39,692 bases of DNA, taken from the IMG/VR virus record IMGVR_UViG_3300001352_000027, positions 1 to 39,692 of that record; one strand, written 5' to 3'. The DNA is from a virus. The notes beneath the pieces are model-generated. The model was given only the letters and a program-made list of their open reading frames with translations. It ran no database searches and had not been told where the DNA came from. This document shows, in pieces, positions 6,010 to 29,637 of this stretch. The position numbers and the translations under genes are program-made. Each line of letters opens with the position of its first letter. Position 1 is the stretch's first letter.

Positions 6010-6028
6010 TAAATAACTTAAATTGGTT

Positions 6029-15000: not shown

Positions 15001-17158
15001 TGTTGATTTTGATACGGGTAATCATTGGAAAATATTTAGCAACAACTATACTAAATTATGTGTTACTTCAACTATAAACATTAAAAAGAAACAATATAAA
15101 GATGTAACTAAAATCAATTATCACGATTTTGAGTTTTCCAATGAGTTTGTTAAGATATTTAAATCACAAAACCAATTTAATTTTGGAATTGATGAAAGTG
15201 TGGTGTGCTTTTCTAATAAAAAGTATTTAATAGAAAAAGAATATTTACCATTTGATTTAGCACATATAGGTACTACTAAAAACATAGTTTCGCATGGTAA
15301 AGTGAGAACGCACACCGAAAATAGTTATAATAGAAATCTCGGTGTTTCAAGTAATAGCAACGAAACAACAATTGACACATCAACCGGATATGTGTGTGGA
15401 AAACCACCAATCGTAAGAACATATAAAAAATCAGACAAACGAAAAACAGAGTATGAAAAAGACTCATTTTGGTTTAATCAAGACAAACAACACATCAGAC
15501 AAACTGAACCGACTCTGATTTACGAACAACCAGAAACCGACCCAATTATATCTTTTAGATTTGAAAACCACGACACATTACAAGATATTACATTAAAAGT
15601 TACGAATTTCAATACAACCGAAACAGAAGATGCAAATGGATTATACAATAAAATTAATCGTTCATATAATAATACTCATGTATTTGAAAATGAAAATGGA
15701 TACTTTATATACAAAACCGATGAGTGTTGGGTGGTTCAAAAATCAAATAAATTTAATGATTTACAATTTTTAGAAAATGTGGGGTATGAATATACTACGA
15801 GTGAAACAAAACGAATTGATGGAGATTTAAATGGAAACTTTGGAAGTAGTTCAAATTTCTCATCGCAAACTGGTTTAATAGAAATACTATCTAATAACAT
15901 AATTGAAAAAACCCCAACACCGACTCCCGAACAAACCCCAACACCAACACCAACCCCAACACCAACACTGCGTTCAAATGAATCTCCTGAGACACCTGAG
16001 GGTATATTAACACCCACCCCGGTGCTGATTACTACACCGACTCCTGAGATCACGGCCGTTACACCAACACCACAGGAAACTTTTCAAACCGATACTGCGT
16101 TTTTATTTGAATATGGTGACTTTGCAATTACAACTAAAAAATATGATTTATCAAAAAACCCCCACTTAACAGAATTAGAAATAGCAGAAGATCTAGACGA
16201 TCAGAGAATAATTATTTCGGGTATTATGTCGGTGGAGGAAATACAAGACCGAGAAGAAATATTATCAGAAATACCCGAGGTAGCTAAAAACTTCGGAATG
16301 GTTGTTTCAAATTATACCAAGATGATTGATGAACGGATTACATCAGAAAATATAAATCAGTATGGTTGGGATTCTAGCAATACACATATAAATGGCAAAT
16401 TCAGAGCATTTTATATGTCAAAGAATCAGTTGGGTCTTTTGCACAAATATGACAACCAACACATATTTGCAGATTATGGATATTTCATCAAAAGTTGGAT
16501 GGGTGCAAGGCACATCGCCGTAAAAGTTCTAAATCAGATTGATCCTGTTACTGAACTATCCGCTACAACAGGATTACCCGAAGGTGTGTTATTATCCTGG
16601 AAACCATCGTATAGTGCAAGTTACCTAAGAATCGAAGCACACAATGAAAACACATCCGAGTGGGTAGTTGTTGTTGACAACCTTTCCCAAATAAGAGCAA
16701 CCGGTGGATATCTCGATACCTCACTTGAATTTAACGAAGAAAGAAAATACAGAGTTATATCAATAGGGGTATCTGGAAAAGAAACAACATCAACAACGGC
16801 AACCGGATGGAAACTTGGAATTCCAGAGGCACCGTCATCTCTTAGTGTATCATATGGAAAATATTCTAATAAGATAGAACTTTCATGGGACGGAAATTCG
16901 TTAAACTCTCAATTCAACAAATCGGATAGTTTTACAATTCTTAGATCAGAGACGAATGAATTTGAAGATTTTTCAACTTATGTTGCAATTGCAAATGATG
17001 TTAAGGAAACTACATATACTGATACCGGTAATTTAAACTCTACTTTTATATATTGGTATGTAGTCGTTGCTAATAATGAAAAAACAAAAATAATGACGGA
17101 GGATGAGTTCAATAAAAAAGAAAACTGGTCAACCTCCGTTGCGGGTAAATTATCATAA
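6029..17158 (+). CDS. Giant modular tail/adhesion protein (3709 aa)
   Basis: One uninterrupted frame; I chose ATG 6029 over TTG 6023, and neither has a Shine-Dalgarno sequence. Order of parts: an N-terminal structural domain (residues 1-200) and helical stretch; an ANGhY module at 7724; a conserved tail segment (about 8200-8560, ending near LPYILKTSGTETSIRALF and CYGIPDHLFKIREYGG); a LamG-like domain that appears split by a WKNFRE module (8855-9250); a Thr-Pro linker (9797); a second conserved segment (GVYFSPTDITNQEIIRFFG, then VPARANLISGLLIEPSLLER); four more ANGhY modules; a CBM5/12-like segment (14903-15037); more Thr-Pro linker; and two fibronectin III domains (16541-17100). This is a mosaic of glycan- and protein-binding folds on a conserved phage scaffold, suggesting a tail fibre, tail tip or baseplate-anchored receptor-binding protein. 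The exact position in the virion is inferred. Confidence 0.85.
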   Translation: MTDILQHTYASKFDIDTNVIRSSSLEPTDFNKIKEREVSGDLFGVNSKDVIEFSAFTQNNELVGWKTIQQTPNYSTRAVSYLNSDGVLERKNISYLKSLYPKTSDGNILVSPKYELSQLGIRQGEYKVRISYRNDIVGSFENPYKLQIKEISGSRTEIKAVTQSFKNSRNPNQISFNFEYGNFLNKQTIVAHVIEKLKNILKNKTFVSELESKEFSKKTSDYSMYINKAKKSFSLTELQILKELDSIYTNLRDVYTNYLYGSYNEVFSQDRFYTDYINLVDYTLNTFSRFVQENNSDLKLFYKYMMIQMFDEDEVSGVFKKRFDTYLLNGMNFGNGLFVPFLKYTSYVDESLSTDSNDVLLIKLLTPLDESITEDVNFYISQNPYSDDIVKSIILRSVVEKNSTTFKLRGPDISTKLTSNATKKFSLSDEEESQLIEDDVQSAENHFKTTNTEVENLNIDYSDFKNFVKFSSARSRLDNFVLKLTNISKLKFKIQETIRKINKLNSDVSSGFLTPNEATRSIEVLKNEDIRKYNEGIVEIFKTFTPYDKFLYYDSDNNAWPRETSFNINGFTGAVDGANGLYKLHASRKYDLDKVFLNENNYSWKIIWDYSVSRWKLFQEDTDIFIYSGTANLNSGFSANENNNSGFANQSSLFKLNLLEGEYTDGTAIFPPELIPTQIIDFQKSDGFAWYKSKAKEADLHDKYNDESLYNSLPEFLVRTNENEEFTLFLGMIGEQFDILHVYTENMTEMANARNSMKKGIPNQLVWFVMNSFGVRLSGRTSDQLTIGKQFEENRDIVWRRVLNNLPYILKTSGTETSIRALFKCYGIPDHLFKIREYGGINYNTDLDESDANFKIDTLDYALQINSADQYLDIPVNFEIIDTNETSVELKLSVGREFFENTNDTITFENTNSATLPANIGTVVGIEKLINSDADYIIGSSKPRFYTKGKNQDSFIPELWKNENSVIAISWKNFREGVSFSYPKVNAGTEPSFVTIYSDRGKLEDGTYDPLYTLAEIGGHDTLNGEVVRLSFSFSQDSGANNGEFRNDQHNLDFRFEGSVAGNHYTISELKQNGYLNNSGYYSILQSNKNWEFGIHRDNTFKEDYGKFYLNFYNTDGILVCPSKLSNPIYFDDNVEYDILITSKQSDTNTDSVISMYVKRMYDSSEVFSSQEDLIVTKYTANNIIQTKNLYFGNYNQQTNFRGTLDKLRIYTTAITEKRFIGHINNNQGYDIDNYIELESVLLTKINFDHPYSLISEQTPTTTPEQTPTPTPEQTPIPTPTLGVDGGTIKNYALSPHKQDVIAHNFTNTTYPYHFVGKNRSELSNLPAMGGKSFNNNKIRIETQEKVAELNPYSRSTKKSKDRHTIDSNTLGVYFSPTDITNQEIIRFFGQINLGEFIGDPHETYNYCYKKLEGLRKIFFKHGFGKLDIQKYFNLIKSYIDPSLFENLEKIVPARANLISGLLIEPSLLERHKIIPPRIKSSTWIDLEENSKSDKEKITEILNINFDVGLSDKNIAAFGNDRTYLADKHGDYKLTHDSDIKVFKNNSEFTFDYNYCGKLVGEDITDSTRDIFTVHGITEQKGKLFKVEKIKEKKSIGVQYTGKLVNYDVFLNDGIQISGFTDGMETANGIYEFKFKGSSGLPVFTNQSRMWWVFYSSHKLRWIIASDNTVDGGKYLALNQGRQYENYTWIGGNKIAESNTNTPEWFSTGFNNSIQSDNLPQRGVDYFGRVSFISKYDRFIECDAYIHGWVNAELYGVYKGELTERVFSEGLSFKNISKPNDNYIFSGDKKYVFLNGTFRGKLQNGWVGSDQIQQTDSDKNIRVVGFFDGKKYESCDNPHYTSGLINSLVSFDNRDKLVFDFRNYNSNQVKFSSKNFDNINLVKIPNSLEYSNDVNFKFISDYTIKNQGISDVVDLSSGQVRKKHKHKTTDIFYSPNVYDVSVTHDIKLKTNSILDIHFLAQGINFKVNGSVVIKINESNLKFNFNKNKYKNCEIISRGNQFQPGSVYNQHGEKVKTNTRNLINTIKESVNYISNEEVINNFENNILNKEDYSLVYVGESLDTFDFIFLISLESKSEINTNLKCENFFENTLITRQTKETVFQHTPMHINNIPQFVRGVDLIKSGRGYTGQEEVEIYGNRPLNWKSSWPQKIKAYKLFNIDTSTGIITGVKPDNFLITGTNWITDSTITFNDTPKIKIENPITDSRYANTENAELRIITGEPTPSVSSIVTLQNYVDLELGDTIGKSLNSANMYFEGRDSVKYDTGLIHTKKINIQTSEKTSSNRLNATEVIVFSNESILDFELYLDAKIKEVMRSDVCGNETPISSDTYEIQITNFYEDDGDIDHGITYTKNRELVNNFFVILNEEKTSEIGEFITDEQYVNKISKINDNKYAEGYVRINGFTTTQSSANGIYRFRNDISYCDKFEAYNVPIPTYTNENKEWIITYDEEIRKWKLRNIKNLNFIVSNTKYLEDGFLANKNNNQGFYTGKEVLPNSNNTIDQNGFVYDATKQIIGNKFQEANVSVSNRFKVVPNKLLFKLEKENFNNFLIWKIAIKSKTNNKFIYEIPLVYINSDSQDELFLDKYNSIETKLKLLNILQYQETSACNLNFQNAIVWKIKSTNEQSGEFSNKSKINTQGLTYLNATCFSKDKNHTLGGRYSYVVDKIINENSSVVEFSRLNRVWKLKTLTRDISLLMNHKYPRCGVYKTTTKNIYGICEYTTADDNGNLAIELRNLTDEYEDANGVYYSYGYLETGEYLFRNNDSNWLFHTSDGGETWELRNDRLHPTLKIEQYSQIEQVGVYTNKSETLKFYINFEIDFIFEDTRDFLNVDINSLRLKSDIGELLVYNKLGYEKNISDDMKLNVEVNVVNAEKISKYWSSIPCKNERSVGDFYIHNNLFLKSKNELYVDEGGFDKFKLIFGVENSRDILHTNVEYDTNLSQHSHDTPHILENFYDNSFKTTVKYKVGDRVYHTDLMWECTNDIPDNRSVIPGVDFDTGNHWKIFSNNYTKLCVTSTINIKKKQYKDVTKINYHDFEFSNEFVKIFKSQNQFNFGIDESVVCFSNKKYLIEKEYLPFDLAHIGTTKNIVSHGKVRTHTENSYNRNLGVSSNSNETTIDTSTGYVCGKPPIVRTYKKSDKRKTEYEKDSFWFNQDKQHIRQTEPTLIYEQPETDPIISFRFENHDTLQDITLKVTNFNTTETEDANGLYNKINRSYNNTHVFENENGYFIYKTDECWVVQKSNKFNDLQFLENVGYEYTTSETKRIDGDLNGNFGSSSNFSSQTGLIEILSNNIIEKTPTPTPEQTPTPTPTPTPTLRSNESPETPEGILTPTPVLITTPTPEITAVTPTPQETFQTDTAFLFEYGDFAITTKKYDLSKNPHLTELEIAEDLDDQRIIISGIMSVEEIQDREEILSEIPEVAKNFGMVVSNYTKMIDERITSENINQYGWDSSNTHINGKFRAFYMSKNQLGLLHKYDNQHIFADYGYFIKSWMGARHIAVKVLNQIDPVTELSATTGLPEGVLLSWKPSYSASYLRIEAHNENTSEWVVVVDNLSQIRATGGYLDTSLEFNEERKYRVISIGVSGKETTSTTATGWKLGIPEAPSSLSVSYGKYSNKIELSWDGNSLNSQFNKSDSFTILRSETNEFEDFSTYVAIANDVKETTYTDTGNLNSTFIYWYVVVANNEKTKIMTEDEFNKKENWSTSVAGKLS
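7724..7990 (+). repeat. ANGhY module, copy 1 (in 3709-aa protein)
   Basis: Begins with FNINGFTGAVDGANGLYKL, then an Asn-Glu-Asn and Trp strand pair (NNYSWKIIWDYSVSRWKLF), and ends in an Asn/Gly-rich tail (SGFSANENNNSGF). The same layout recurs five more times in the window. Confidence 0.75.
8855..9250 (+). repeat. WKNFRE module, single copy in 3709-aa protein
   Basis: About 130 residues: RFYTKGKNQ, then ISWKNFREGVSFSYPKV, then TIYSDRGKLEDGTYDPLYTL, EIGGHDTLNGEVVRLSF, and GNHYTISELKQNG. It is preceded by the same LPANIG-type linker seen between copies of the eight-unit array at 22729-26424. Confidence 0.9.
9797..9871 (+). repeat. Thr-Pro-Glu-Gln linker 1
   Basis: Three units of the pattern EQTPTPTP encode a stiff extended linker just after the LamG-like domain. 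DNA copies differ by single bases. Confidence 0.9.
10871..11105 (+). repeat. ANGhY module, copy 2
   Basis: Starts IQISGFTDGMETANGIYEF, followed by FTNQSRMWWVFYSSHKLRWI and a short Gly-rich end. Same order of motifs as copy 1, with the second strand pair keeping the Trp residues. Confidence 0.7.
13217..13501 (+). repeat. ANGhY module, copy 3
   Basis: VRINGFTTTQSSANGIYRF, then YTNENKEWIITYDEEIRKWK, then a tail DGFLANKNNNQGFY that closely parallels the tail of copy 1. Confidence 0.78.
14213..14400 (+). repeat. ANGhY module, copy 4
   Basis: IELRNLTDEYEDANGVYYS, then FRNNDSNWLFHTSDGGETWE. The Gly-Gly-Glu-Thr-Trp turn replaces the usual charged turn before the second Trp. Confidence 0.65.
14903..15037 (+). 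other. CBM5/12-like (chitin-binding type) segment
   Basis: Within the 3709-aa protein, residues about 2959-3003 read YKVGDRVYHTDLMWECTND, then a Pro-Gly turn and TGNHWKI. The pattern Y-x-x-G-D-x-V-x-x-x-x-x-x-W/Y-x-C ... P-x ... W is that of small carbohydrate-binding modules of families 5/12 found in chitinases and phage tails. Assigned from the motif only. Confidence 0.5.
15593..15885 (+). repeat. ANGhY module, copy 5
   Basis: LKVTNFNTTETEDANGLYN, then FENENGYFIYKTDECWVVQ, then an Asn/Ser-Gly-rich tail (GNFGSSSNFSSQTG). Confidence 0.72.
15911..15967 (+). repeat. Thr-Pro linker 2
   Basis: Encodes alternating Thr-Pro with one Pro-Glu-Gln unit. A looser Thr-Pro stretch continues to about 16075, forming the hinge between the module-rich middle and the C-terminal FN3 part of the 3709-aa protein. 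Confidence 0.9.
16541..17100 (+). other. Two fibronectin type III domains
   Basis: Residues about 3505-3690 of the 3709-aa protein. Each domain has the FN3 pattern: a Pro start (DPVTELSATT; IPEAPSSLSVS), a core Trp strand (VLLSWKPS; IELSWDG), a Tyr/Ile strand and a final Tyr-x-Val strand (YRVISIG; YWYVVVAN). FN3 pairs are common near the ends of phage tail proteins. Confidence 0.85.
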
Positions 17159-18118: not shown

Positions 18119-18790
18119 ATGGGTTATCTAAATAATGAAACTATAACCGTTCATGCGGTTCTTACCCGAAAGGGTAGAGAATTGCTTGCTTCGGAGAATG
18201 GTCTAAATATCACGAGTTTTGCACTTGCTGATGATGAAGTAGACTATACACTATACGATCCGAACCATCCAGAAGGATCGCAATACTATGACTCCGCACT
18301 TCGTAGTATACCTGTATTTGAACCACTTACTGATGAAACACAATGTTTAAAATATAAACTAGTAACACTTCCACCTGGAACAGAATACATCCCCACTATT
18401 AAACTCGGTCAACAAAACATTATCGTTGATAAGACATATAATGGAGTTATTAACATAACACCTACAACAGAACCTGTATATAATACTTCACTTGGATATA
18501 CTGCGGTTTTATCAAATAGAAATGTAGGAACACTCACGGGTACAGGACTTGATGTAGGTGCTTCACAAACCGCTTCTATATTTTTAGGAGACACTTCAAG
18601 TGAAATGGCAACTACTGAGGTAGGGTTTTCTTTTACATTTAAACCAAACAAAAGCATAACAACTGACCAACGAGCAACACTGACTATAATCGGAAATGAA
18701 AGTGGAGGTTCAACCTCAATCCCTGTCGTTGTAACGGTCGTTTCAGCAAGTGAAAATTCAGAACAAGATACACTTAATACATTCCTATGA
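18119..18790 (+). CDS. Virion structural protein (MGYLNNET family), unknown function
   Basis: 223 residues. The start MGYLNNETITVHAVLTRKG and the segment FALADDEVDYTLYDPNHPEG are a well-conserved opening that I associate with structural proteins of large marine tailed phages; I know no assigned function. The C-terminal half is Thr/Ser/Gly-rich beta structure (TGTGLDVGASQTASIFLGD, then RATLTIIGNES), like an Ig-type or BACON-like domain. It follows the late-promoter-like site, has no Shine-Dalgarno sequence, and its stop overlaps the next ATG (ATGA), so the two are probably translated together. Likely a tail or tail-fibre-associated component. Confidence 0.75.
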   Translation: MGYLNNETITVHAVLTRKGRELLASENGLNITSFALADDEVDYTLYDPNHPEGSQYYDSALRSIPVFEPLTDETQCLKYKLVTLPPGTEYIPTIKLGQQNIIVDKTYNGVINITPTTEPVYNTSLGYTAVLSNRNVGTLTGTGLDVGASQTASIFLGDTSSEMATTEVGFSFTFKPNKSITTDQRATLTIIGNESGGSTSIPVVVTVVSASENSEQDTLNTFL

Positions 18791-20205
18791 GCATATACAG
18801 AGAAATAGAACAAACTGATAAAGTTTTTGGTCGTGTAAGAAAAGTATCTTCTGGATTATTTTCAACGGGATTTGAGTGTATAGATTTTTATATAGATAAT
18901 TCTGAAGTTTCTAGTAACATAAGTGGTTGGGTAGAGTCAACACCTGATGAATCTACACCAAGTTCGTATGTAAGTCCAGACTTTGATGACTTTGGAAACG
19001 TTACGAACTACAATGCAGATGATGTAATATTCGAAGGAGAGTCCACGGGAACACTTGGTGAAAATAAAAAAAAATGGAACGATGTGTCATTTGGAGATTA
19101 TTATGTAAATGTATATAACGAACCAACATATATTGACGGAATCCCAAATGACAACTCTACTTCACAATTTTCTATATCATACGGAAATAAGCACGGATAT
19201 GGTTCACTAAACTCGGATTTATCCACATCCGTTACAAAAGCAGTTTACAATCAATACAAAAATATATTACTGGGACCGGGAGACTCTAGTTGGACATTTG
19301 CGTTGGATTCAAACACCAACTCATTTAAAGACAGAGATTCAATATATGTAATAAATTTTTCATCATCGCAGTTGAAAGAAAAGTTCGATCCTGGTAATCT
19401 TGAATTTAGATTAACCATAACACATGACGATATTACCGTAACCGAGACATTTAGAGATGATAGTAGATTCACAACAAATTCGGTTAGAAATCCATCAACT
19501 GGTAAAGTATATCAGATAGTTACGGGTTCTATTGTTGACGAAATGTCGGATGATAAACGATATGCATCCGGTTCAGGAGAAGGATCTGGTGAAGGATTTG
19601 GGTTTGTATATCCCGATTTAGGTATTCTTGTTTTAAATCCGTTTGCATTGTCGTGTCACTTTGGAAGTAAAATAGAAGAAGAGCTGATCAGCAGAGGTGA
19701 ATCAGAGCAAGCCTCTGAAAAAAATAACAAAGGAAGACAACTAAGTTGGTATGGAAAAAGTGATCCGACTGTAATTAACACAAGTGAAGAGCTTGGTTCT
19801 GCTGATTTACAATATGGAACAGAAAGAAATCATCAAAATTTTATGAAGTTATTCAATGCTATTAAATTAGGTGGGTCATTCAAAGCAAGAAGCACCGAGT
19901 TCGTACCATCCAAGCATTATTTTATACGAGTAAAAAATACAGACTTTAACTACAGTAATAATCCTTCATTTGTATACGGTGGTAAAGAGGCCACTCAGAT
20001 TCACGAAGAGGGTTCGGGTCCTAATCGTGACTATTGGATTGGCAGGTTGCGTCATGAAGATTTTATAGATGATCCAAAGTCTTACATTACTACTGTTGGT
20101 TTGTATAACGAAAACAACGAGTTGGTTGCAGTTGCAAAGTGCAGTGTTCCGATTTTAAAAAGTTTTGATACAGAAACATTGATAAAAGTAAAACTAGACT
20201 TCTAA
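18787..20205 (+). CDS. Virion structural protein with conserved C-terminal TTVGLY motif
   Basis: 472 residues, coupled to the previous gene by a 4-base ATGA overlap. Beta-rich throughout, with a Gly/Ser-rich turn (SGEGSGEGFGFVYPDLGIL) near the middle and a FIRVKNTDFNYSNNPSF stretch near the end. The last 45 residues read YITTVGLYNENNELVAVAK, then a Pro and a Leu-Ile-Lys-Val-Lys strand. The same ending pattern closes the 3129-aa protein, which suggests a common attachment or trimerisation tail. The FNYSNNPSF segment also parallels FNFSTNPTS near that protein's end. I infer a tail fibre or baseplate-peripheral role; no enzyme motif is visible. Confidence 0.75.
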   Translation: MSIYREIEQTDKVFGRVRKVSSGLFSTGFECIDFYIDNSEVSSNISGWVESTPDESTPSSYVSPDFDDFGNVTNYNADDVIFEGESTGTLGENKKKWNDVSFGDYYVNVYNEPTYIDGIPNDNSTSQFSISYGNKHGYGSLNSDLSTSVTKAVYNQYKNILLGPGDSSWTFALDSNTNSFKDRDSIYVINFSSSQLKEKFDPGNLEFRLTITHDDITVTETFRDDSRFTTNSVRNPSTGKVYQIVTGSIVDEMSDDKRYASGSGEGSGEGFGFVYPDLGILVLNPFALSCHFGSKIEEELISRGESEQASEKNNKGRQLSWYGKSDPTVINTSEELGSADLQYGTERNHQNFMKLFNAIKLGGSFKARSTEFVPSKHYFIRVKNTDFNYSNNPSFVYGGKEATQIHEEGSGPNRDYWIGRLRHEDFIDDPKSYITTVGLYNENNELVAVAKCSVPILKSFDTETLIKVKLDF

Positions 20206-20247: not shown

Positions 20248-23200
20248 GTGATAAAAGTATTAAAACTATCAAATAAGTCGGTTACACGATTTAATACTAA
20301 TAAAAAGTGGAATTATAGTACACTTGATTCTGGTAGCAATATAGTACTAGAGCAAGGTGAAGATATTCCGTTATTTTCGTCTGCAACAAATAAATTATCA
20401 ACAGAGCAGAATAACTCCGAGTTTAAGTTGAATATGCGGGTTGGTAAAAAGGTGACTGGAACCTTTTTCTCAAAAGACAGCAAGCACTTTAACTCAAAAA
20501 ACGAACCTTTGAATTACGATGGTTCATATCAAAGAGTTGTATATAACAGTGTAAAGCATTTGTTTTATAACGACTACGGAGTTGTTGGAGATGCAGAAAA
20601 TGATCAGCACTACAAAAATCCAATGAACATTTTTGGAAGTGAAACTGGAATTTATTCACCACAAAACTTTAATTCAAATACAATTGAAGTAGATAAAAGA
20701 AGTGAACGTAGGATACTGAAGAATGAAGTTACGGTTCTTGAGATTCCAGCTGGTGTGTTTGGTGAGAAGATAAAACCAGGTACATTAAAAATAACGGATC
20801 ATAGTTCTGAGTATGAATCAATAGAAATTATTGATGATGGAAACACCAACTTAGTTGTGGGGTCGGATACTTTTAATAGTATATCTGAACTAAACTTGAA
20901 TTCATTTTTTAGTTCAATATCCGAAACATCATCTACGGATGTTAAGGTAAATGTTGATTACACCGATTTGTCGTATGGATTTACGATTGACTCATACGGA
21001 GACTTTCTTCTAACCGGAGCTCCTATATTACCAACATCTCCTTCAGAAAACCAAGCCGGCCGTGCATCTTTACATAAATTCAACCCAACTTCTAAGCAAC
21101 ATGAATTAGTAAAAAACTTTTATTGTCCATTTACACAGAACGGAATCGCACAAGAAAACAGAAACGATAATTGTCAGTTTATAATAACAGAGTTAGATGA
21201 TGTTATATCAACTGAAGATTTTTTGGTAAATGATAATTTTGGAAAATCTGTTTCAATTAACGAAACTATATGTGCAATCGGTTCTCCTGTGTCACATATA
21301 AACGGAAGAAACAATGATCAACCAACTGGTCATGTTTTTATTTATGAAAAAAACAAAGGTGGAAAAGAAAATTGGGGAATCATAAATGTATTTGAGGGAA
21401 CACCTGACTCTGAGTTTGGAGAGTCCATCTCAATCGATAAAGATTTTATAGCAATTGGATCACCCAACTTTGACAATGGAACTGGATGTGTTTATTTATT
21501 CAAAAAAACAAAAAGAACAAAAGAACATCCTTGGATCAAGACATCGTCTGTGTACGATTCATATAAATGGGACGATGTATTATCTAAATACGAAGGAACT
21601 CCAAATCAAAACACAGAGAAATATTCTAAGTATCTGAAAGAGCGTGATAGAATCGTATCTCGAAGAATTTCAAAAACAATCAAAGAACTTAAAAAATTAA
21701 GAGAGGCAGGAACTATATCAGATATAGAATATATTCAAAGCATCCCAACAAAAGACGATTATAGTGAGGTGTTTCCATATAACTATTTATATACAGACAC
21801 CGATCAAGATTGTGATAATGAATCTATAAATTGGTATAACCAAAAAATATGGAGCAAGCATACTCATCCAGCGACCCGTTGCCAATTCTCTGAATCTGAA
21901 AAACACTACAAGAAATCCACCTGGCCAGGATACATGACAGATGAAAAAACTGACCTATATCTACCAAACCCTGACCACGAACAAAATAAAGATAACAAAT
22001 GGGCATATCGGTGGAAGCTTCAAAATATTGAGGGTGGTGCAGAGTTCATTCATTTGTTCGGTGACGAGAACGAATGCGACTCAGAAGAACTATCCATGTT
22101 TTCAGATACGAACTTGAATTCATTTGGAGATGGTAGTGGGTTTCCATTAACAGAATATTCAGAAACACCAAACGAGTCAATTGGTGATACTACATTTGAT
22201 TTAGTTGGAACTATAAAGTCACCTGATCTGAGCAGTAAACGGTTCGGTGAGAAGGTTGTCATTAAGGGCAACAAGTTATATGCGTCAACATACTCAACCA
22301 ACCTACCTCGGTGCTATATGTTCACAAAAACTACAAACCAACATGGATGTGAGGTATGGGAATTAAAAAATACAATATCTGAGACAGAACTCGTGGGACA
22401 TACATCTGAGTCATATATAGATGAAAATGCATTTAAGTCGGCAGAAATAAACCACTACGATACATATTTTGACATTAAGGTCTGCCCAAACATACAACCT
22501 GAGTCAACTTCTAGGTACGACAAGTGGATATACAGTTTTGATCAACCTATTCTAAATTCAGAATTTAAAATACAAGGTGGTGTAAGAGTTGATAGATGTG
22601 ACTCTATCTGTAAAGATTTTAACACATATGAATATTACTCACGATTTAATAAAATAAACCTAAACCAATCTGCACAAATACCTGCTAACTATGGAGAATC
22701 TATAAATCTACCAATGTTAGACACATCTGCAAAGTTTTTTAGTAAATCCGAGTTAGCAGATTCGTTTTACCATCCATCCGAAAACTCTACCGGAGTATCT
22801 TGGAAAAACGCAAGAGATAACGTTTCGTTTGCATATACAAATGTTGAACCTGGAACTTTTCCAAATTTCATGACGATATATTCAAATGATGCGAAACAAG
22901 ATGATGGAACATATGATCCACTTCACACACTGATAGAAATCGGCGCACAAGAAACTCTAAACAACAAGTATGTCAGACTAATAATAAACAGTGGCATGGG
23001 TGACACAGAACACTTTTATGAGTTTTTATATCGTGGGTCAATAGAGGGTACTCATTACACACTAAATGAACTCAAGCAATCATTAGACTTTGAATGTACC
23101 CTTCCACCGAACAGAGGGCATTATGAAATAATTTCCAATGAAAATTTCGTAGATTCACTTGGTAATAAATCAAACGCAAAGTTATTCTATAATAAAGAAA

Positions 23201-26200
23201 GTGATTCCGTGTACTCAGAACCGTGGACTTCCGATGATACATTAAGTATCGGATGGAAAAATTTTAGAGAAAATGTATCGTTTTCATATCCTGTGGTTGT
23301 CAAAGGAAAGCATACATCTATAATGAAAGTGTATTCAAATAATGCTAAAAACTTAGACGGTTCGTACAATCCTTTAAATATATTAGCAGAAATTCATGCA
23401 CAAGAGACACTTGAAGGTGAAAATGTAAGACTCACATTCAACACAGGATTCACCAATAATGTGGAGTATCATTATGACTTTATATATAGAGGATCAATAA
23501 CCGGTACTCAGTATACATTAAATGAACTTAAAACATCATTGGATTATAGTTGCACCTTACCACCAAACCAAGGTGAGTATATTGAAATTGCAGAAGACAG
23601 ATTCACAGACCCACTTGGTAGTAAACTACCTGCACAATTGTTTTCCAAAGGAGAAACTACACCTTCTTATATACAACCTTGGTGTGGTGAAGATGCGATT
23701 GGGTTATCGTGGAAAAATTTTAGAGAAAATGTATCTTTTTCATATCCCAATGTCAAACGAGGTAAACTTCCTTCGTTTATGGCAATTTATGCAAATGAAG
23801 CAAAACAGGAAGATGGATCATATGACCCACGATACATCTTAGCAGAAATAGGCGCACAAGAAACATTAAACAGAGAATTCGTGCGACTTACATTTAACAC
23901 CGGATTTGTCGGTGGTGATGAATATTATTATGAGTTTATGTATCGTGGGTCAATTGAAGGAACGCACTATACACTAAACGAACTAACAGATATTTATGAT
24001 TCTTATGCTGAGACAGACATAAACTCAGGAACAATTAGGTATATCAATGATTATGAAAATTTGAATATATTTAAAAAATGCAGACTTCCAAAATTTTATT
24101 CTAAATCAGAAAACCAACTTTCATATGTTGAACCATATTCATCGGATAAAAAACAAGCAATATCATGGAAGAACTTTAGAGAAAATGTTTCATTTTCATA
24201 TCCCAACATAGACTCTGGAACTGAACCAAGTTTCATGACAATATATTCAAATGATGCAAAACGACTAGACGGAACATATGATCCCATTTATACGTTGGCA
24301 GAAGTTGGTGCTTCAAATGCAATGAATGGTCAACTTGTAAAATTATTTATATATGCTGATAATTGTAAAAATGATAAAACTCAAGTTTATGAGTTTATAT
24401 ACAAAGGATCTGTGGGTGGTTCTCACTTTACACTTGATGAATTAAAAAATAAAATTGACTACGATTGTACCTTACCTCCCAACATGGGAATTCCTGTTTT
24501 GCTAACAACAATAGACTCAACCGCAAATGAAAACTCGTTGCTTTTTAGTAAATCTGAAGGAGGGTTGTCATATACAGAACCTTACTCATCTGATAACTCA
24601 ATGGGGTTGTCGTGGAAAAACTTCAGAGAAAATGTATCGTTTTCGTATCCTGATGTATCTAGAGGAGACTACCCTTCGTTTATGGCAATTTATGCAAATG
24701 AAGCAAAACATGAAGATGGATCATATGATCCAAGACACATCTTAGCAGAAATAGGCGCACAAGAAACATTAAACGGAGAAGTCGTGCGACTTACATTTAA
24801 CACCGGATTTGTCGGTGGTGATGAATATTATTATGAGTTTATGTATCGTGGGTCAATTGAAGGAACGCACTATACACTCAACGAGCTCAAGCAATCATTA
24901 GAGTTTGAGTGTACACTTCCTGCGAACCTTGGTGGTTATATCTCAATATCAGATCGTGAATTCAGTGATCCTCTTGATAACAAATTCAGAGCAAAGTTTT
25001 TCTCGAAGAATGAAGACGGAGTTTCATATACCGAACCTTGGATTGGTGAAAACATACTTGATATTTCATGGAAAAACTTCAGAGAAAATGTATCGTTTTC
25101 GTATCCAAGTGTGAAAAAAGGAAATGCACCATCTGTTATGACAATATATGGAAATGGAGCAGTTCAACCAGACGGATCATATAATCCATTATATATACTT
25201 GCAGAAATCGGGGCACAAGAAACTTTAAACGGAGAGTTGGTTAGACTAACATTCAATTCGGGTTTCGTGGGTGGTGACGAATATTACTATGATTTTGTAT
25301 ATCATGGTTCACTTGATGGTACTCACTATACAATCAACGAACTACGAGAATCAGTTGAGTTTGAGTGTATGTTACCACCAAACCAAGGAACATCAGTTTC
25401 CTTATCAGAGATAAAATTCGAAGACTATTTATTAAACTCTGCTGGTGCAAAGTTTTTCACAAAAAATAAGAATCAAAGTTCATATAAACACAATCCACAC
25501 ATGGATGAGATTTCAATTAGTTGGAAAAACTTCAGAGAAAATGTATCACTTTCCTACCCAAGTATAATTTCTGGATCAGAACCTAGTTTCATGACTATAT
25601 ATGCAAATGGTGCCAGAGATAAAAACGGTAACTATGATCCGATAAAAACCCTAGCAGAAATAGGAGCAGAGGATTCGTTAAATGAACACACGGTTAGGCT
25701 GACATTTAATTATGGGTCCGAAACTGACGATGAGTTTTATTATGAGTTTATCTACAACGGGTCATTGAACGGAACTCACTATACACTCAGTGAACTTATG
25801 GATCATGGTTTGCTAAAGAAAGTAGAATCATCATCACCTCTCCAAAAAAATAAATCTGATAAAAATAATAGATTTTATGTCGAAAAACTTAAAAGTGAAG
25901 TAGTAAATCAAGTTGAACCTCACGATGTTACTATAATTTCGAGTAGTACAGATACAGAAATTAAAAAAATAAAATCCTTTGGGAAACTACCTGCTAATTA
26001 CGGCCACAGAGACATAGTTGATATTCAACTTACAGATGATATACTGCAATCTTCTAATCAAATCACATTTTATAGTATGACTGAACTCGGTGATCCGTAT
26101 ACACAACACAGTGGTTTGGAAGATGAGATTTCACTTAATTGGGGAAACTTCAGAGAAGGTGTGAGTTTCTACTATCCAACCATTTCAAAAAAATCATTAG

Positions 26201-29200
26201 ATACAGATGAGTACCACATGAGTATATACATGAACCACATCACCGAGAGTGGTTATGATAAAAACAGACTTCTGGCAGAAGTAAAATCAAATAGTGCATT
26301 AAACGGAGAGATTGTTAGATTGGTTCTTAATGAAGATGAGAATACGGAAATTTTCTATGAATTTCTATTTGATGGTACACTAGAAGGAACTCATTACACA
26401 ATCACAGAGTTGAATGAGACAATTTCTCCAAATTTAAATAAACCTTTGATAGTCCACTCTCCTGAACTTGAAAATTGCAAAGTTAGAATAGATAAAAATC
26501 AACTTACACCTGGGTTGCACAAGTTGTATATATTACTATTAGATTCATCTGATCAACCAATTGGTGAAGAGTCAAAAATAGAGATGTACAACAATCCAAT
26601 TATTTATGATGTAGAGACTCGTAAAAACTTAGTTAAAAAATCATACACCTATTCAACAAATATAAAATCTAAATTTGGAAAGGGAATAGATGCTTCGGAT
26701 AATTTTTTGGTTATTGGAAATCCGGTAGATAGGAAGTACTACACAGATTATACAACATCATATACGGCCGGAAGTGCATATGTATTTAGGGTAAACGAAC
26801 AAAATTTAGACTTCGTTGAAAAAATTTACGGTGAAGATAACTTTGAAAACGAATTTAGTTCAGAATTCGGAAACGATATATCTGTACTCGGAAGTAACTT
26901 TCTAGTTGGGAGTCATTCAACAGAAATGACGAATATTAACATAAACGAAAGTGGTGGAATTAAAAAACTTGATATTGAAGACTTAGAATTCGGTGCAACA
27001 AAATATTTAGACGAGAACTATAATACAAACGAAGCACTGATAACTGATTACGAACTTGATTTAAATAGTGAGGTGGGAGATGCGATAGTAAAAGTAAAAA
27101 TAGATGATTTGAACATAAATAAATCACTACTCAGTGAAGCAACATTAAAAGCAAACTTTATTGATACGGGTTACGAAACTTTGAGAATTTCTGATGTGGA
27201 TGGTGAATTAACTGAATCTATAAACGGAGTGTATAGGTTAGTAAAATCCCCAATTAATGTTGTATCGGGTTGTGATATAGATTTAAATTCAATGAATCGT
27301 GTTTACATGAATAAACATAACTGGTCGGTGTTTTACGATAAGTTACGAAGTTGTTGGGTTCTTACTGATAAACCTAATATATCAGTTGAATATGAAATAC
27401 CATGTAGTTGGAGTAATACTCTTGAAATATTTGAACGAATTAATTTAATAAGTGAGTTTAATTTGTTGACCGAAGAGATGCTGACAAGTGCGTTTGCGTT
27501 GTATAATATAAGTGACCAAGATACGATAACTAAATGGAAAGCACGAACACAAACTAGAATTCCTAGCATACAAATTCGGTACGCGGATTTAATCAGAGAA
27601 CTTGAGTCAATTACTAAACTTGAATTAAACGGAGAACTTATCGAAGAGTTGTTTTATTTGTATAGTTCAAATTCAAGAAAACGAATCGGTGTAGACATAC
27701 TGAATAGGTGGAAAGAGTCTGATGGTAATTTAGGGATGTTACCTTTTATATATGAACTAGATTCAGTTAACCCCATTTTTTTAAATTTTAATTTATTGGT
27801 TAAAACTTTGGACATCTATAAATTAAAAGATTATGAAATACTAAAATCATGGTCAGTTAAACTTGGTTATGAACACCTTCTTGGTGATTTATTGAGAGAA
27901 ATTAGACCAAGTTACCATGATAAATTATCATTATATAATCTACGGGTATTAAGTAAAATTGCATTGGACTTTATAAATCAAAGAAAATATAACTCACTGC
28001 CCTCGGTTGAAAATCAGTGTTCCGATGACGAAAACTTTCATTTAACTGAAGAGGAACTTGTTAGTTATAGACAAAAATGGAAACCACGTGTAGATAGTGG
28101 GTTTTTGTTGAGTGATGTATTCAAAGATATAAATGAAAACATAAATATCAATTTTGCATTGTCAAGTGAGTCATCCGAAGATGAACTTCCAATGAATTTC
28201 AAATCAGGAGTTGGAACTCTTGGTGATAAAGTTGTTAATGTATATTCAAAAAATGATACAACAGGTCAAACTTCATCATTAACATGGGGCATATATCGTG
28301 ATGAAACAAAGATAGTAGGAAATCACATACACTTTTATATCAACTTACTTCCCGACACCGAACTTGATAGTACATTAGTCTTTGTGTACAATTCTGTAAA
28401 GTCCGCAATTAACGGGTATGTATATTATTACTCAATGGACAAAACTAACAATAAATGTAATAAACTAAAAAGAATGAAAACCAACAAGACATCATATTCA
28501 TGTAAAAAACAATATGGTCATTCCGTAAGTTTAAGTAAAAACTTCATTTCAGTTGGGTCTCCTGTGCTTGGCAATTTTAATATTGATGAAATTACTACAT
28601 TTGGTGGAAGGTCATTGGTATCGTTTGGGGAGTCTGATAAACTTTTTATAGAGTATGATATGATACACCCTACTTATATAAATCAACTTAGTAAAAAGGT
28701 TGTGGGTTCTATTATTGCATATGACCACTCGGCTATACGAGACAATAAACGTCATTATATAGGAAATATATTCTATAAGAATGGTATTATAGCACTTACC
28801 GATAGAAGTGGGTATTTCTCAGATGTACTAAGCAACAGTGGTGTGTCTGGATTTGAGTTAGAGTTTAAATCTATGCATACCTTATATGAAAACGAAATAT
28901 TGTGTAAAGTTGAACCACATGAATTTAATTTCAGCACAAATCCCACATCCGTAGCAACTGGAAGTGCCTCGTATGATATAAATCAAGATGGAAAATTTGA
29001 TATTATTGATGCATCCTACATATTTAAATACATAATGGGTGAAGTTGGTGATATAGAAATAACCGATGATGAGATAATAGAAAATGAAACATCAATCAAG
29101 TTGTCAGATAAAAATAAGTGGCCAAAGCAAGATATATTGATGACAGAATCAGAAGATGCTTTGTTGATGGATTTATTTTTTAGTTCTGATGTAATTGAAA

Positions 29201-29637
29201 ATCGTCCAGTACACGATAAAATAGTATCAAATTTAAAAGAAAAATATGATAATGGAGAGTTTGATATTAACGGAGACGGAAAAACTGATGAAGTTGATGC
29301 GAATTTATTATTAAGATATTTCATAGGAAGACGTGGAGCATATTTAACTCGTGATTTGGTAAGTAAATATAACGATTCATCTAGAACAGATTCAAATAGT
29401 ATAGTGAAGTTTCTAGATGAAAAGACTGGCAAAAACTTAGGTCGTGAAATATTAAAAGATTTTCAAGACTTTTCTGAAAATGACAAACAAGATTCTACTG
29501 GAAGTTATCTTGCTCCATATGCAACTACAATTGGATTATATAGTGGTTTGGAACTTGCTATGGTTGCAAAATTAGGCAAGCCTGTGAAAATACTTCCGAA
29601 CTATCCTATAAACTTTTTAATAAAATTTGATAATTAA
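20248..29637 (+). CDS. Giant modular tail/adhesion protein (3129 aa)
   Basis: One continuous frame from GTG 20248; no in-frame ATG or Shine-Dalgarno sequence supports another start near the N-terminus. Order of parts: an N-terminal structural domain (residues 1-200); FG-GAP/beta-propeller-like blades (FGKSVSINETICAIGSPV; FGESISIDKDFIAIGSPN; FGEKVVIKGNKLYAST); an eight-copy WKNFRE array (22729-26424); two or three more propeller-like blades (FGKGIDASDNFLVIGNPV; FGNDISVLGSNFLVGSHS; YGHSVSLSKNFISVGSPV); one ANGhY module (27181); a helical region (about 27430-28150); a conserved structural end (SMHTLYENEILCKVEPHEFN); two dockerin/EF-hand-type calcium loops; and the TTIGLY tail. It probably forms part of the host-contact apparatus together with the 3709-aa protein. 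The beta-propeller seems interrupted by the array. Confidence 0.85.
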   Translation: MIKVLKLSNKSVTRFNTNKKWNYSTLDSGSNIVLEQGEDIPLFSSATNKLSTEQNNSEFKLNMRVGKKVTGTFFSKDSKHFNSKNEPLNYDGSYQRVVYNSVKHLFYNDYGVVGDAENDQHYKNPMNIFGSETGIYSPQNFNSNTIEVDKRSERRILKNEVTVLEIPAGVFGEKIKPGTLKITDHSSEYESIEIIDDGNTNLVVGSDTFNSISELNLNSFFSSISETSSTDVKVNVDYTDLSYGFTIDSYGDFLLTGAPILPTSPSENQAGRASLHKFNPTSKQHELVKNFYCPFTQNGIAQENRNDNCQFIITELDDVISTEDFLVNDNFGKSVSINETICAIGSPVSHINGRNNDQPTGHVFIYEKNKGGKENWGIINVFEGTPDSEFGESISIDKDFIAIGSPNFDNGTGCVYLFKKTKRTKEHPWIKTSSVYDSYKWDDVLSKYEGTPNQNTEKYSKYLKERDRIVSRRISKTIKELKKLREAGTISDIEYIQSIPTKDDYSEVFPYNYLYTDTDQDCDNESINWYNQKIWSKHTHPATRCQFSESEKHYKKSTWPGYMTDEKTDLYLPNPDHEQNKDNKWAYRWKLQNIEGGAEFIHLFGDENECDSEELSMFSDTNLNSFGDGSGFPLTEYSETPNESIGDTTFDLVGTIKSPDLSSKRFGEKVVIKGNKLYASTYSTNLPRCYMFTKTTNQHGCEVWELKNTISETELVGHTSESYIDENAFKSAEINHYDTYFDIKVCPNIQPESTSRYDKWIYSFDQPILNSEFKIQGGVRVDRCDSICKDFNTYEYYSRFNKINLNQSAQIPANYGESINLPMLDTSAKFFSKSELADSFYHPSENSTGVSWKNARDNVSFAYTNVEPGTFPNFMTIYSNDAKQDDGTYDPLHTLIEIGAQETLNNKYVRLIINSGMGDTEHFYEFLYRGSIEGTHYTLNELKQSLDFECTLPPNRGHYEIISNENFVDSLGNKSNAKLFYNKESDSVYSEPWTSDDTLSIGWKNFRENVSFSYPVVVKGKHTSIMKVYSNNAKNLDGSYNPLNILAEIHAQETLEGENVRLTFNTGFTNNVEYHYDFIYRGSITGTQYTLNELKTSLDYSCTLPPNQGEYIEIAEDRFTDPLGSKLPAQLFSKGETTPSYIQPWCGEDAIGLSWKNFRENVSFSYPNVKRGKLPSFMAIYANEAKQEDGSYDPRYILAEIGAQETLNREFVRLTFNTGFVGGDEYYYEFMYRGSIEGTHYTLNELTDIYDSYAETDINSGTIRYINDYENLNIFKKCRLPKFYSKSENQLSYVEPYSSDKKQAISWKNFRENVSFSYPNIDSGTEPSFMTIYSNDAKRLDGTYDPIYTLAEVGASNAMNGQLVKLFIYADNCKNDKTQVYEFIYKGSVGGSHFTLDELKNKIDYDCTLPPNMGIPVLLTTIDSTANENSLLFSKSEGGLSYTEPYSSDNSMGLSWKNFRENVSFSYPDVSRGDYPSFMAIYANEAKHEDGSYDPRHILAEIGAQETLNGEVVRLTFNTGFVGGDEYYYEFMYRGSIEGTHYTLNELKQSLEFECTLPANLGGYISISDREFSDPLDNKFRAKFFSKNEDGVSYTEPWIGENILDISWKNFRENVSFSYPSVKKGNAPSVMTIYGNGAVQPDGSYNPLYILAEIGAQETLNGELVRLTFNSGFVGGDEYYYDFVYHGSLDGTHYTINELRESVEFECMLPPNQGTSVSLSEIKFEDYLLNSAGAKFFTKNKNQSSYKHNPHMDEISISWKNFRENVSLSYPSIISGSEPSFMTIYANGARDKNGNYDPIKTLAEIGAEDSLNEHTVRLTFNYGSETDDEFYYEFIYNGSLNGTHYTLSELMDHGLLKKVESSSPLQKNKSDKNNRFYVEKLKSEVVNQVEPHDVTIISSSTDTEIKKIKSFGKLPANYGHRDIVDIQLTDDILQSSNQITFYSMTELGDPYTQHSGLEDEISLNWGNFREGVSFYYPTISKKSLDTDEYHMSIYMNHITESGYDKNRLLAEVKSNSALNGEIVRLVLNEDENTEIFYEFLFDGTLEGTHYTITELNETISPNLNKPLIVHSPELENCKVRIDKNQLTPGLHKLYILLLDSSDQPIGEESKIEMYNNPIIYDVETRKNLVKKSYTYSTNIKSKFGKGIDASDNFLVIGNPVDRKYYTDYTTSYTAGSAYVFRVNEQNLDFVEKIYGEDNFENEFSSEFGNDISVLGSNFLVGSHSTEMTNININESGGIKKLDIEDLEFGATKYLDENYNTNEALITDYELDLNSEVGDAIVKVKIDDLNINKSLLSEATLKANFIDTGYETLRISDVDGELTESINGVYRLVKSPINVVSGCDIDLNSMNRVYMNKHNWSVFYDKLRSCWVLTDKPNISVEYEIPCSWSNTLEIFERINLISEFNLLTEEMLTSAFALYNISDQDTITKWKARTQTRIPSIQIRYADLIRELESITKLELNGELIEELFYLYSSNSRKRIGVDILNRWKESDGNLGMLPFIYELDSVNPIFLNFNLLVKTLDIYKLKDYEILKSWSVKLGYEHLLGDLLREIRPSYHDKLSLYNLRVLSKIALDFINQRKYNSLPSVENQCSDDENFHLTEEELVSYRQKWKPRVDSGFLLSDVFKDINENININFALSSESSEDELPMNFKSGVGTLGDKVVNVYSKNDTTGQTSSLTWGIYRDETKIVGNHIHFYINLLPDTELDSTLVFVYNSVKSAINGYVYYYSMDKTNNKCNKLKRMKTNKTSYSCKKQYGHSVSLSKNFISVGSPVLGNFNIDEITTFGGRSLVSFGESDKLFIEYDMIHPTYINQLSKKVVGSIIAYDHSAIRDNKRHYIGNIFYKNGIIALTDRSGYFSDVLSNSGVSGFELEFKSMHTLYENEILCKVEPHEFNFSTNPTSVATGSASYDINQDGKFDIIDASYIFKYIMGEVGDIEITDDEIIENETSIKLSDKNKWPKQDILMTESEDALLMDLFFSSDVIENRPVHDKIVSNLKEKYDNGEFDINGDGKTDEVDANLLLRYFIGRRGAYLTRDLVSKYNDSSRTDSNSIVKFLDEKTGKNLGREILKDFQDFSENDKQDSTGSYLAPYATTIGLYSGLELAMVAKLGKPVKILPNYPINFLIKFDN
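22729..26424 (+). repeat. Eight-copy WKNFRE module array
   Basis: Eight modules of about 125-133 residues at 22729-23118, 23176-23574, 23632-23991, 24088-24489, 24538-24933, 24991-25389, 25447-25815 and 26062-26424. Consensus order: (A/P)-x-h-F-S/T-K, then hSWKNFRENVSFSYP, then SFMTIYxNxAK with DGxYDP, LAEIGAQETLNG, VRLTFN, YYEFhYRGSIEGTHYTLNEL. Most copies end in a Leu-Pro-Pro-Asn-x-Gly linker. Copy 8 is the most diverged (NWGNFREGVSFYYP). The pattern looks like an all-beta domain; I do not recognise the family. Confidence 0.95.
27181..27400 (+). repeat. ANGhY-type module, copy 6 (in 3129-aa protein)
   Basis: LRISDVDGELTESINGVYRL, then MNKHNWSVFYDKLRSCWVL. It keeps the N-G-h-Y and the paired Trp strands but has Ile for the Ala of ANG, and is the only copy in this protein. 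Confidence 0.65.
28975..29340 (+). other. Dockerin-like pair of calcium-binding loops
   Basis: Two loops of the form D-x-N-x-D-G-x-x-x-x-x-D occur at residues about 2910 (DINQDGKFDIIDA) and 3006 (DINGDGKTDEVDA). Each is followed by a helix ending in a Tyr/Phe and Gly (SYIFKYIMGE; NLLLRYFIGR), as in type I dockerin repeats. The roughly 80-residue spacer between them is longer than in classical dockerins. Calcium binding is inferred from the ligand pattern. Confidence 0.75.

Follow-up and report, generated by a model that had tools for sequence, protein, structure and literature searches.

An undescribed, predicted beta-rich module forms an eight-copy array nested in the FG-GAP propeller of a T4-like phage tail-fibre locus protein

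Phage tails are known to carry beta domains in tandem, which are mostly interpreted as shafts or as loose decorations. Which of these, if either, describes the eight-copy array carried by a giant open reading frame (ORF) of 3129 amino acids (aa) in IMG/VR virus record IMGVR_UViG_3300001352_000027, whose 39,692 nucleotides we call the window? An initial annotation had described this array as eight copies of an unrecognised domain, hereafter the WKNFRE module, in a giant tail protein, and had suggested that it sets fibre length or receptor avidity. We put the probability at slightly under one half (about 0.48) that the 3129-aa protein is an adhesin of the tail-fibre locus that arose by nested insertion and binds multivalently, probably to glycans. 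The nesting, linker grammar, unit order, two-part units, selection and gene conversion on which this reading is built were all read from sequence, and relatives are cited below by our L numbers.

The W-K-N-F-R-E motif starts at residues 850, 1001, 1153, 1305, 1454, 1606, 1757 and 1963, all in-frame in the one ORF, so that the eight copies and the motifs quoted in the initial annotation were right. When a single module was used as the query against its own record, all other copies were recovered with E values of 1e-19 to 1e-65 and 44-90% identity, a resemblance that is, on this sequence comparison, far beyond chance. The modules recur every 149-152 residues (about 151), with 206 residues between units 7 and 8, and each unit consists of an N-terminal part of about 46 residues, usually starting from LPPNxG, and a core of about 95 residues. 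The module length of about 130 residues given at first was too short, because the roughly 46 N-terminal residues belong to every unit. Likewise, the span first assigned to the array (22729-26424) is slightly too narrow, and with the N-terminal segments it covers about 22675-26445. Leu-Pro-Pro-Asn linkers had been said to join most of the modules; in the form Cys-x-Leu-Pro-(Pro)-Asn they are present at the five junctions 1-2, 2-3, 4-5, 5-6 and 6-7 but at neither 3-4 nor 7-8, and this pattern is kept in relatives.

To what family does the module belong? No credible match was obtained in Pfam (nine family members scanned), PHROGs, NCBIfam (80 members) or the PDB sequences, and neither the Pfam nor the NCBIfam scan matched it to an Ig-like, FN3, BACON or CBM profile. 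Nothing credible was found at E<=1 among 50,697 named phage records, and a bacterial origin of the module was rejected, as two scans of GTDB genomes returned no bacterial relative. AlphaFold2 predicted the single unit confidently as a beta-rich domain, with a predicted local distance difference test score (pLDDT) of 89.2 and a predicted template modelling score (pTM) of 0.83, and the tandem pair was also predicted confidently (pLDDT 88.0, pTM 0.77). Considering that two well-folded domains without a fixed mutual orientation usually give a pTM near 0.5, the value of the tandem model suggests a defined unit-unit orientation, which, like the fold, is a prediction. Neither model had a significant Foldseek match (tandem pair, best E 0.003 with a template modelling (TM) score of 0.11 in BFVD; single unit, best E 0.15 in PDB). 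Ig-type chains top the list for the single unit, with E values of at least 0.14, probabilities of at most 0.25 and TM scores of about 0.2, and the weak matches to Nop5, transketolase and Ig/MHC chains were set aside as chance, being short, with TM scores of about 0.1-0.2, and of unrelated functions. A literature search on FG-GAP phage fibres, the module motif and the Microcystis phage Mel-JY01 found nothing. The WKNFRE domain is undescribed in the libraries searched, in line with its first label of unrecognised, and it defines a new domain family whose unit is confidently predicted.

The array is the innermost part of a nested protein. FG-GAP_2 matched three stretches of the 3129-aa protein (E 2e-15; 57.2 bits versus a cut-off of 23), and seven blade motifs can be read by pattern and alignment in the window and in L107 and L094, while only three pass the hidden Markov model (HMM) in the window. 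Blade 6 holds an extra region of 340 residues (about 2321-2660). Based on a profile search with the N-terminal part, we identified array-less orthologues (1269-1409 aa) with the same core and, by motif, seven FG-GAP blades. When the window protein was aligned with one of these, L094 (1379 aa), residues 583-766 corresponded to 468-656 and residues 2068-2325 to 669-927, so that about 1300 residues in the window stand against 12 in L094 (766/2068 versus 656/669). By this alignment, a single insertion placed the array within a hairpin of a small beta domain, which itself lies between blades 4 and 5; L107, L109 and L110 seemingly lack even the beta domain. The propeller itself interrupts a core, as the core-only protein L063 (342 aa) matches, in consecutive sections, residues 91-202, 2837-2905 and 3080-3128; the latter two stretches also match gp105 of the Flavobacterium phage immuto, whose host is Flavobacterium sp. 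LMO8. Dockerin_1 matched two stretches (32.2 bits versus a cut-off of 22.9), and this pair is kept in all ten array-bearing records tested and in L094. In the orthologues L100, L101 and L104, which are without the WKNFRE array, a different tandem domain lies between blades 3 and 4, and its candidacy as a distant homologue of the module was rejected (hhalign probability 0.3%). That domain, which in L101 lies at 11393-13132, spans about 105-125 residues and is present in at least three copies, with the motif SSxWxxxGILS ... VDVYDxxxxLxGHITYTG and no Pfam match over the cut-off.

Scans of IMG/VR recovered the module from many contigs. The array-bearing relatives are uncultured IMG/VR contigs, several of them partial, and nine complete arrays were compared, that of the window included. 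The copy number was eight in seven of them (window, L010, L011, L013, L014, L015 and L016), six in L018 and five in L017. In all nine, the linker joins units 1-2-3 but precedes neither unit 4 nor the last unit, the latter coming after a long spacer; the variants seen are Arg for Cys after unit 2 in L018 and Tyr for Cys after unit 1 in L016. From these gaps in the linkers, the arrays read as 3+4+1, 3+2+1 (L018) and 3+1+1 (L017), a sequence grammar of 3+n+1 with n = 4, 2 or 1, and this rule predicts where the copy number may vary, namely in the middle segment only. Unit 4 has a Cys pair of its own (unit positions 21 and 116) in all its orthologues, including those in the five- and six-copy arrays, which is a possible disulphide or metal site.

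The units group by position and not by phage (18 label changes versus a shuffled mean of 57.6) in a quick tree that used few columns and left several forks unresolved. While the 46-residue parts of the window are 26-43% identical between compared units, their identity with the corresponding parts of L010 and L011, taken position by position, is 72-96%; the cores are 56-89% alike between units. For the cores of units 3 and 5 within the same phage, 84-93% of the codons for identical residues are shared (window, L010 and L011), whereas the same measure against orthologous units was 69-73% with L011 and 59-62% with L013. Since codon sharing within a phage exceeds that between orthologues, the codon comparison shows gene conversion between units 3 and 5, in the core only. 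The ratio of non-synonymous to synonymous substitution rates (dN/dS) of the array was about 0.16 in unsaturated comparisons (L010 and L011) and that of the termini 0.05-0.10, and by this measure the array is clearly under purifying selection. Arrays across phages are only about 63-72% identical, yet their units are orthologous position by position.

The module also occurs outside the array. The ninth copy counted in the initial annotation is indeed present, in the 3711-aa ORF, where it splits a LamG-like domain (Laminin_G_3 match below threshold); the homologous region of Mel-JY01 WWT39511 is continuous and without the module, which makes the copy an insertion in the ORF of the window. All three contigs that were long enough to cover every location hold exactly ten modules each, namely eight in the array, one in an ORF of about 3700 aa and one near the C-terminus of a protein of about 725-757 aa. 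One-module proteins of about 710-757 aa (L034:6147-8369; also L025, L036-L041 and L123-L129) are found in phages with and without the array, and the 740-aa protein of L034 has no named relative and no Pfam match. When 14 incomplete contigs with array-less orthologues were searched, seven held a single module, always in a frame of 708-729 aa, and seven held none. Because the protein of about 725 aa bears the module whether or not an array is present, it is the probable source from which the module spread through the genome, as far as these incomplete contigs indicate.

How might such a protein work? The small core protein, which is found alone in relatives, probably anchors the 3129-aa protein to the baseplate or tail. 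A propeller of the integrin (FG-GAP) type with seven blades would be mounted on the core, a small beta domain would sit between blades 4 and 5 of the propeller, and the hairpin of that domain would hold the eight modules. With its two ends anchored in a single hairpin, the array would leave and return at one point, and its beta-rich domains would project as a loop divided into segments of 3, 4 and 1. Most likely, every common core touches a repetitive ligand of the host surface, probably a glycan, in the same weak way, and the loop would thereby gain avidity; the position-specific N-terminal parts most likely set the geometry of the loop. Shared and homogenised cores suggest one repeated contact, as position-specific segments suggest geometry. 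Virion location, loop shape and ligand binding are what we infer from this architecture, and its simplest use would be to hold a repetitive surface polymer weakly at many points. Receptor avidity, one of the two roles named in the initial annotation, fits these features and becomes the leading idea, still unproven. The homogenised cores 3 and 5 and the likeness of cores across positions are as expected if all cores keep one shared function, and the module in two other proteins, together with an unrelated array in another propeller loop, is as expected for exchangeable binding parts. Four points weigh against an adhesin. The module matched no lectin or carbohydrate-binding family; its conserved residues, such as W50, R54, E95 and H135, may lie in the interior and serve folding only; the loop would follow from topology only; and the array shows no elevated dN/dS, although rapid evolution is frequent in receptor-binding parts. 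A wider claim seems to us doubtful, that the module is a new beta fold, seen so far only in this T4-like phage group, which as a closed multi-domain loop with a 3+n+1 code on the propeller would be the main host-gripping element, with propeller loops serving as exchangeable sockets for unrelated arrays.

The main rival to the adhesin, clearly less probable but to be taken seriously, is that the array is a structural brace or spacer, which binds no host and instead fixes the geometry of the propeller or of neighbouring fibres, or links tail proteins. Copy number and order are strongly kept, the segment grammar looks architectural, and the pTM of the tandem model suggests a defined stacking; a brace would also suit the purifying selection without acceleration and the single modules in two further structural-type proteins. 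However, the array is absent from close relatives, so the tail can dispense with it; homogenised cores beside divergent N-terminal parts exceed what a spacer needs; and in some phages another loop holds a different domain. It is unlikely that the ligands of the modules are proteins of phage or host and not glycans, as they would be if the modules docked accessory fibres and the dockerin pair offered a further docking site. While the constancy of the dockerin pair and the presence of the module in three different phage proteins speak for such docking, no cohesin was found among the Pfam hits of the scanned proteins of the window, itself a fragment, and the dockerin motifs may be mere calcium-binding loops. 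Fibre length, the other role proposed at first, in which each copy would be a fixed step of a shaft, is disfavoured as very improbable; head-to-tail repeats in five to eight copies in a tail-locus protein would be in keeping with it, but it was dropped because the insertion site mapped to a single beta-domain hairpin between two blades, where the array ends lie together and the copies do not extend a shaft, and because the number is exactly eight in most complete arrays. Neutral or selfish expansion of functionless repeats is hardly credible. The exchange of sequence between units 3 and 5, by which recombination acts in the array, would be in keeping with it, but selection is purifying, orthology holds position by position across diverged arrays and the linker grammar is conserved.

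The adhesin reading has parallels in known systems. In integrins, the ligand-binding alphaI (vWA) domain buds from a loop between two FG-GAP propeller blades, and integrin-type propellers are also found in bacteria (PMC3192720). Like alphaI, the array is an insert in a loop between two blades of an FG-GAP propeller, here with seven blade motifs; unlike it, the carrier is a phage protein and the inserted part consists of tandem copies of an unrelated domain, lodged within an additional beta domain, at blades 4/5 and not 2/3. A vWA domain with a metal ion-dependent adhesion site (MIDAS) was looked for, and Pfam gave no vWA match for the array-bearing protein or the module. The series of homologues given below suggests a viral integrin-type propeller that serves as a socket for insertable domain arrays, comparable to the gain of the alphaI domain by integrins. 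A tail-associated protein of crAssphage has eight tandem BACON beta domains, which arose by duplication and are distinguishable by position (PMC6949934). The array likewise has eight tandem, position-distinct beta domains in a phage tail-locus protein but differs in having no BACON or other Pfam match and no bacterial relatives in the two scans, and in being inserted as a loop in a propeller. Phage virions also carry Ig-like domains and carbohydrate-binding modules, small beta domains inserted in several structural proteins of one phage, for which weak surface binding has been proposed. One example of such virion domains is PMC6669499. The WKNFRE module resembles them as a small beta domain inserted in several proteins of one phage, and differs in lacking an Ig-like or CBM profile match and a significant fold match.

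Among homologues, core-only proteins (immuto gp105 and L063) have the same core without propeller or array, the array-less IMG/VR orthologues (L094-L115) have core and propeller with seven blade motifs, with the dockerin pair in L094, and L100, L101 and L104 have the unrelated array instead. An evolutionary series is thus visible, from core only, to core with propeller, to the added beta domain, and finally to either this array or, at another loop, a different one. The coordinates of all features are given in Table 1.

Table 1. Features of the window and of the array-bearing ORF, with the basis of each assignment
Feature	Position	Strand	Basis or remark
gp25 and gp6 baseplate wedge genes	1842-2228, 2230-4200	+	
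3711-aa ORF, gp7 / P2 gpI position	6023..17158	+	homologue of Mel-JY01 WWT39511 and immuto gp109
Ninth module, single copy, within LamG-like domain of 3711-aa ORF	8774..9259 (core 8936-9241)	+	
472-aa neighbour	18787..20205	+	homologue of immuto gp106 and four adjacent Mel-JY01 proteins; C-terminal motif common with core
Giant ORF, 3129 aa, GTG start	20248..29637	+	ORF call; encodes core, propeller (FG-GAP), beta domain, the array of eight modules and a pair of dockerin-type motifs
Core, N-terminal part, residues 1-202	20248..20853	+	91-202 match L063 (342 aa, core-only); 156-203 match Mel-JY01 WWT39517
FG-GAP blades 1-4, residues about 240-285, 328-380, 387-425, 660-700	20965..22347	+	blades 2 and 3 HMM; blade 1 motif; blade 4 alignment
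Beta domain, first half, residues about 727-781	22426..22590	+	comparison with array-less orthologues
Module 1	22675..23091	+	self-search and motif
Module 2	23089..23553	+	self-search and motif
Module 3, core in gene conversion with module 5	23551..24012	+	self-search and motif, codon comparison
Module 4, without preceding Cys-x-Leu-Pro linker, own Cys pair	24013..24471	+	self-search and motif
Module 5	24469..24909	+	self-search and motif
Module 6	24907..25371	+	self-search and motif
Module 7	25369..25797	+	self-search and motif
Spacer, about 55-60 residues, between modules 7 and 8	25798..25986	+	
Module 8, most divergent copy	25987..26445	+	self-search and motif
Beta domain, second half, residues about 2066-2118	26443..26601	+	comparison with array-less orthologues
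FG-GAP blades 5-7, starts about residues 2140, 2204, 2753	26665..28737	+	blade 5 HMM; rest motif and alignment
Core, middle part, residues 2837-2905	28756..28962	+	
Two dockerin type I motifs	28936..29322	+	Pfam
Core, C-terminal 50 residues	29485..29634	+	50% identical to immuto gp105 end

Gene order and homology support the assignment of the 3129-aa ORF to the tail-fibre locus of a T4-like phage, and on these grounds its early description as a giant tail protein is likewise supported. The gp25 and gp6 genes lie upstream of the array ORF, and genes for a RuvC-like resolvase, a primase and SbcCD-like proteins lie downstream. The gp6 protein is 42-43% identical to those of Mel-JY01 and the uncultured phage LR756508, and 38% identical to that of immuto. 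An array-bearing relative (the contig of L009) encodes a T4-type gp23 capsid protein nearest to those of LR756508, immuto and Mel-JY01 and, further off, Rhodothermus phage RM378. The matching slot in immuto and Mel-JY01 holds a series of related proteins that have the core and C-terminus in common with the 3129-aa protein, and in immuto annotated tail fibre and tail spike genes adjoin it. No profile matched the 3711-aa ORF to gp7 or P2 gpI, and it is therefore named by position only.

Five adjacent proteins of Mel-JY01, WWT39513 to WWT39517 (L043:28999-37945; 352-954 aa), have one common C-terminal core motif, YITTIGLYNDxxELLAVAKLSKP, with variable extra parts. The motif is also present in immuto gp105 and gp106 and in the 472-aa ORF of the window, which delineates an unannotated family of tail-locus proteins. 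A T4-type late promoter at the giant ORF was rejected, as TATAAATA is not commoner than in shuffled sequences and the copy beside the start lies on the opposite strand; no tRNA and no Rfam match were found. The 3711-aa ORF has Thr-Pro-rich, linker-like stretches (TPTPEQTPTPTP) at 9803-9877 (residues about 1261-1285) and 15914-16094 (about 3298-3358), and L034 has comparable runs, as does L016 ahead of its array. Lastly, a P-loop kinase encoded at 35989-37038 matches Zeta_toxin (E 1.6e-11), AAA_33 and the PHROG ATPase/polynucleotide kinase families.

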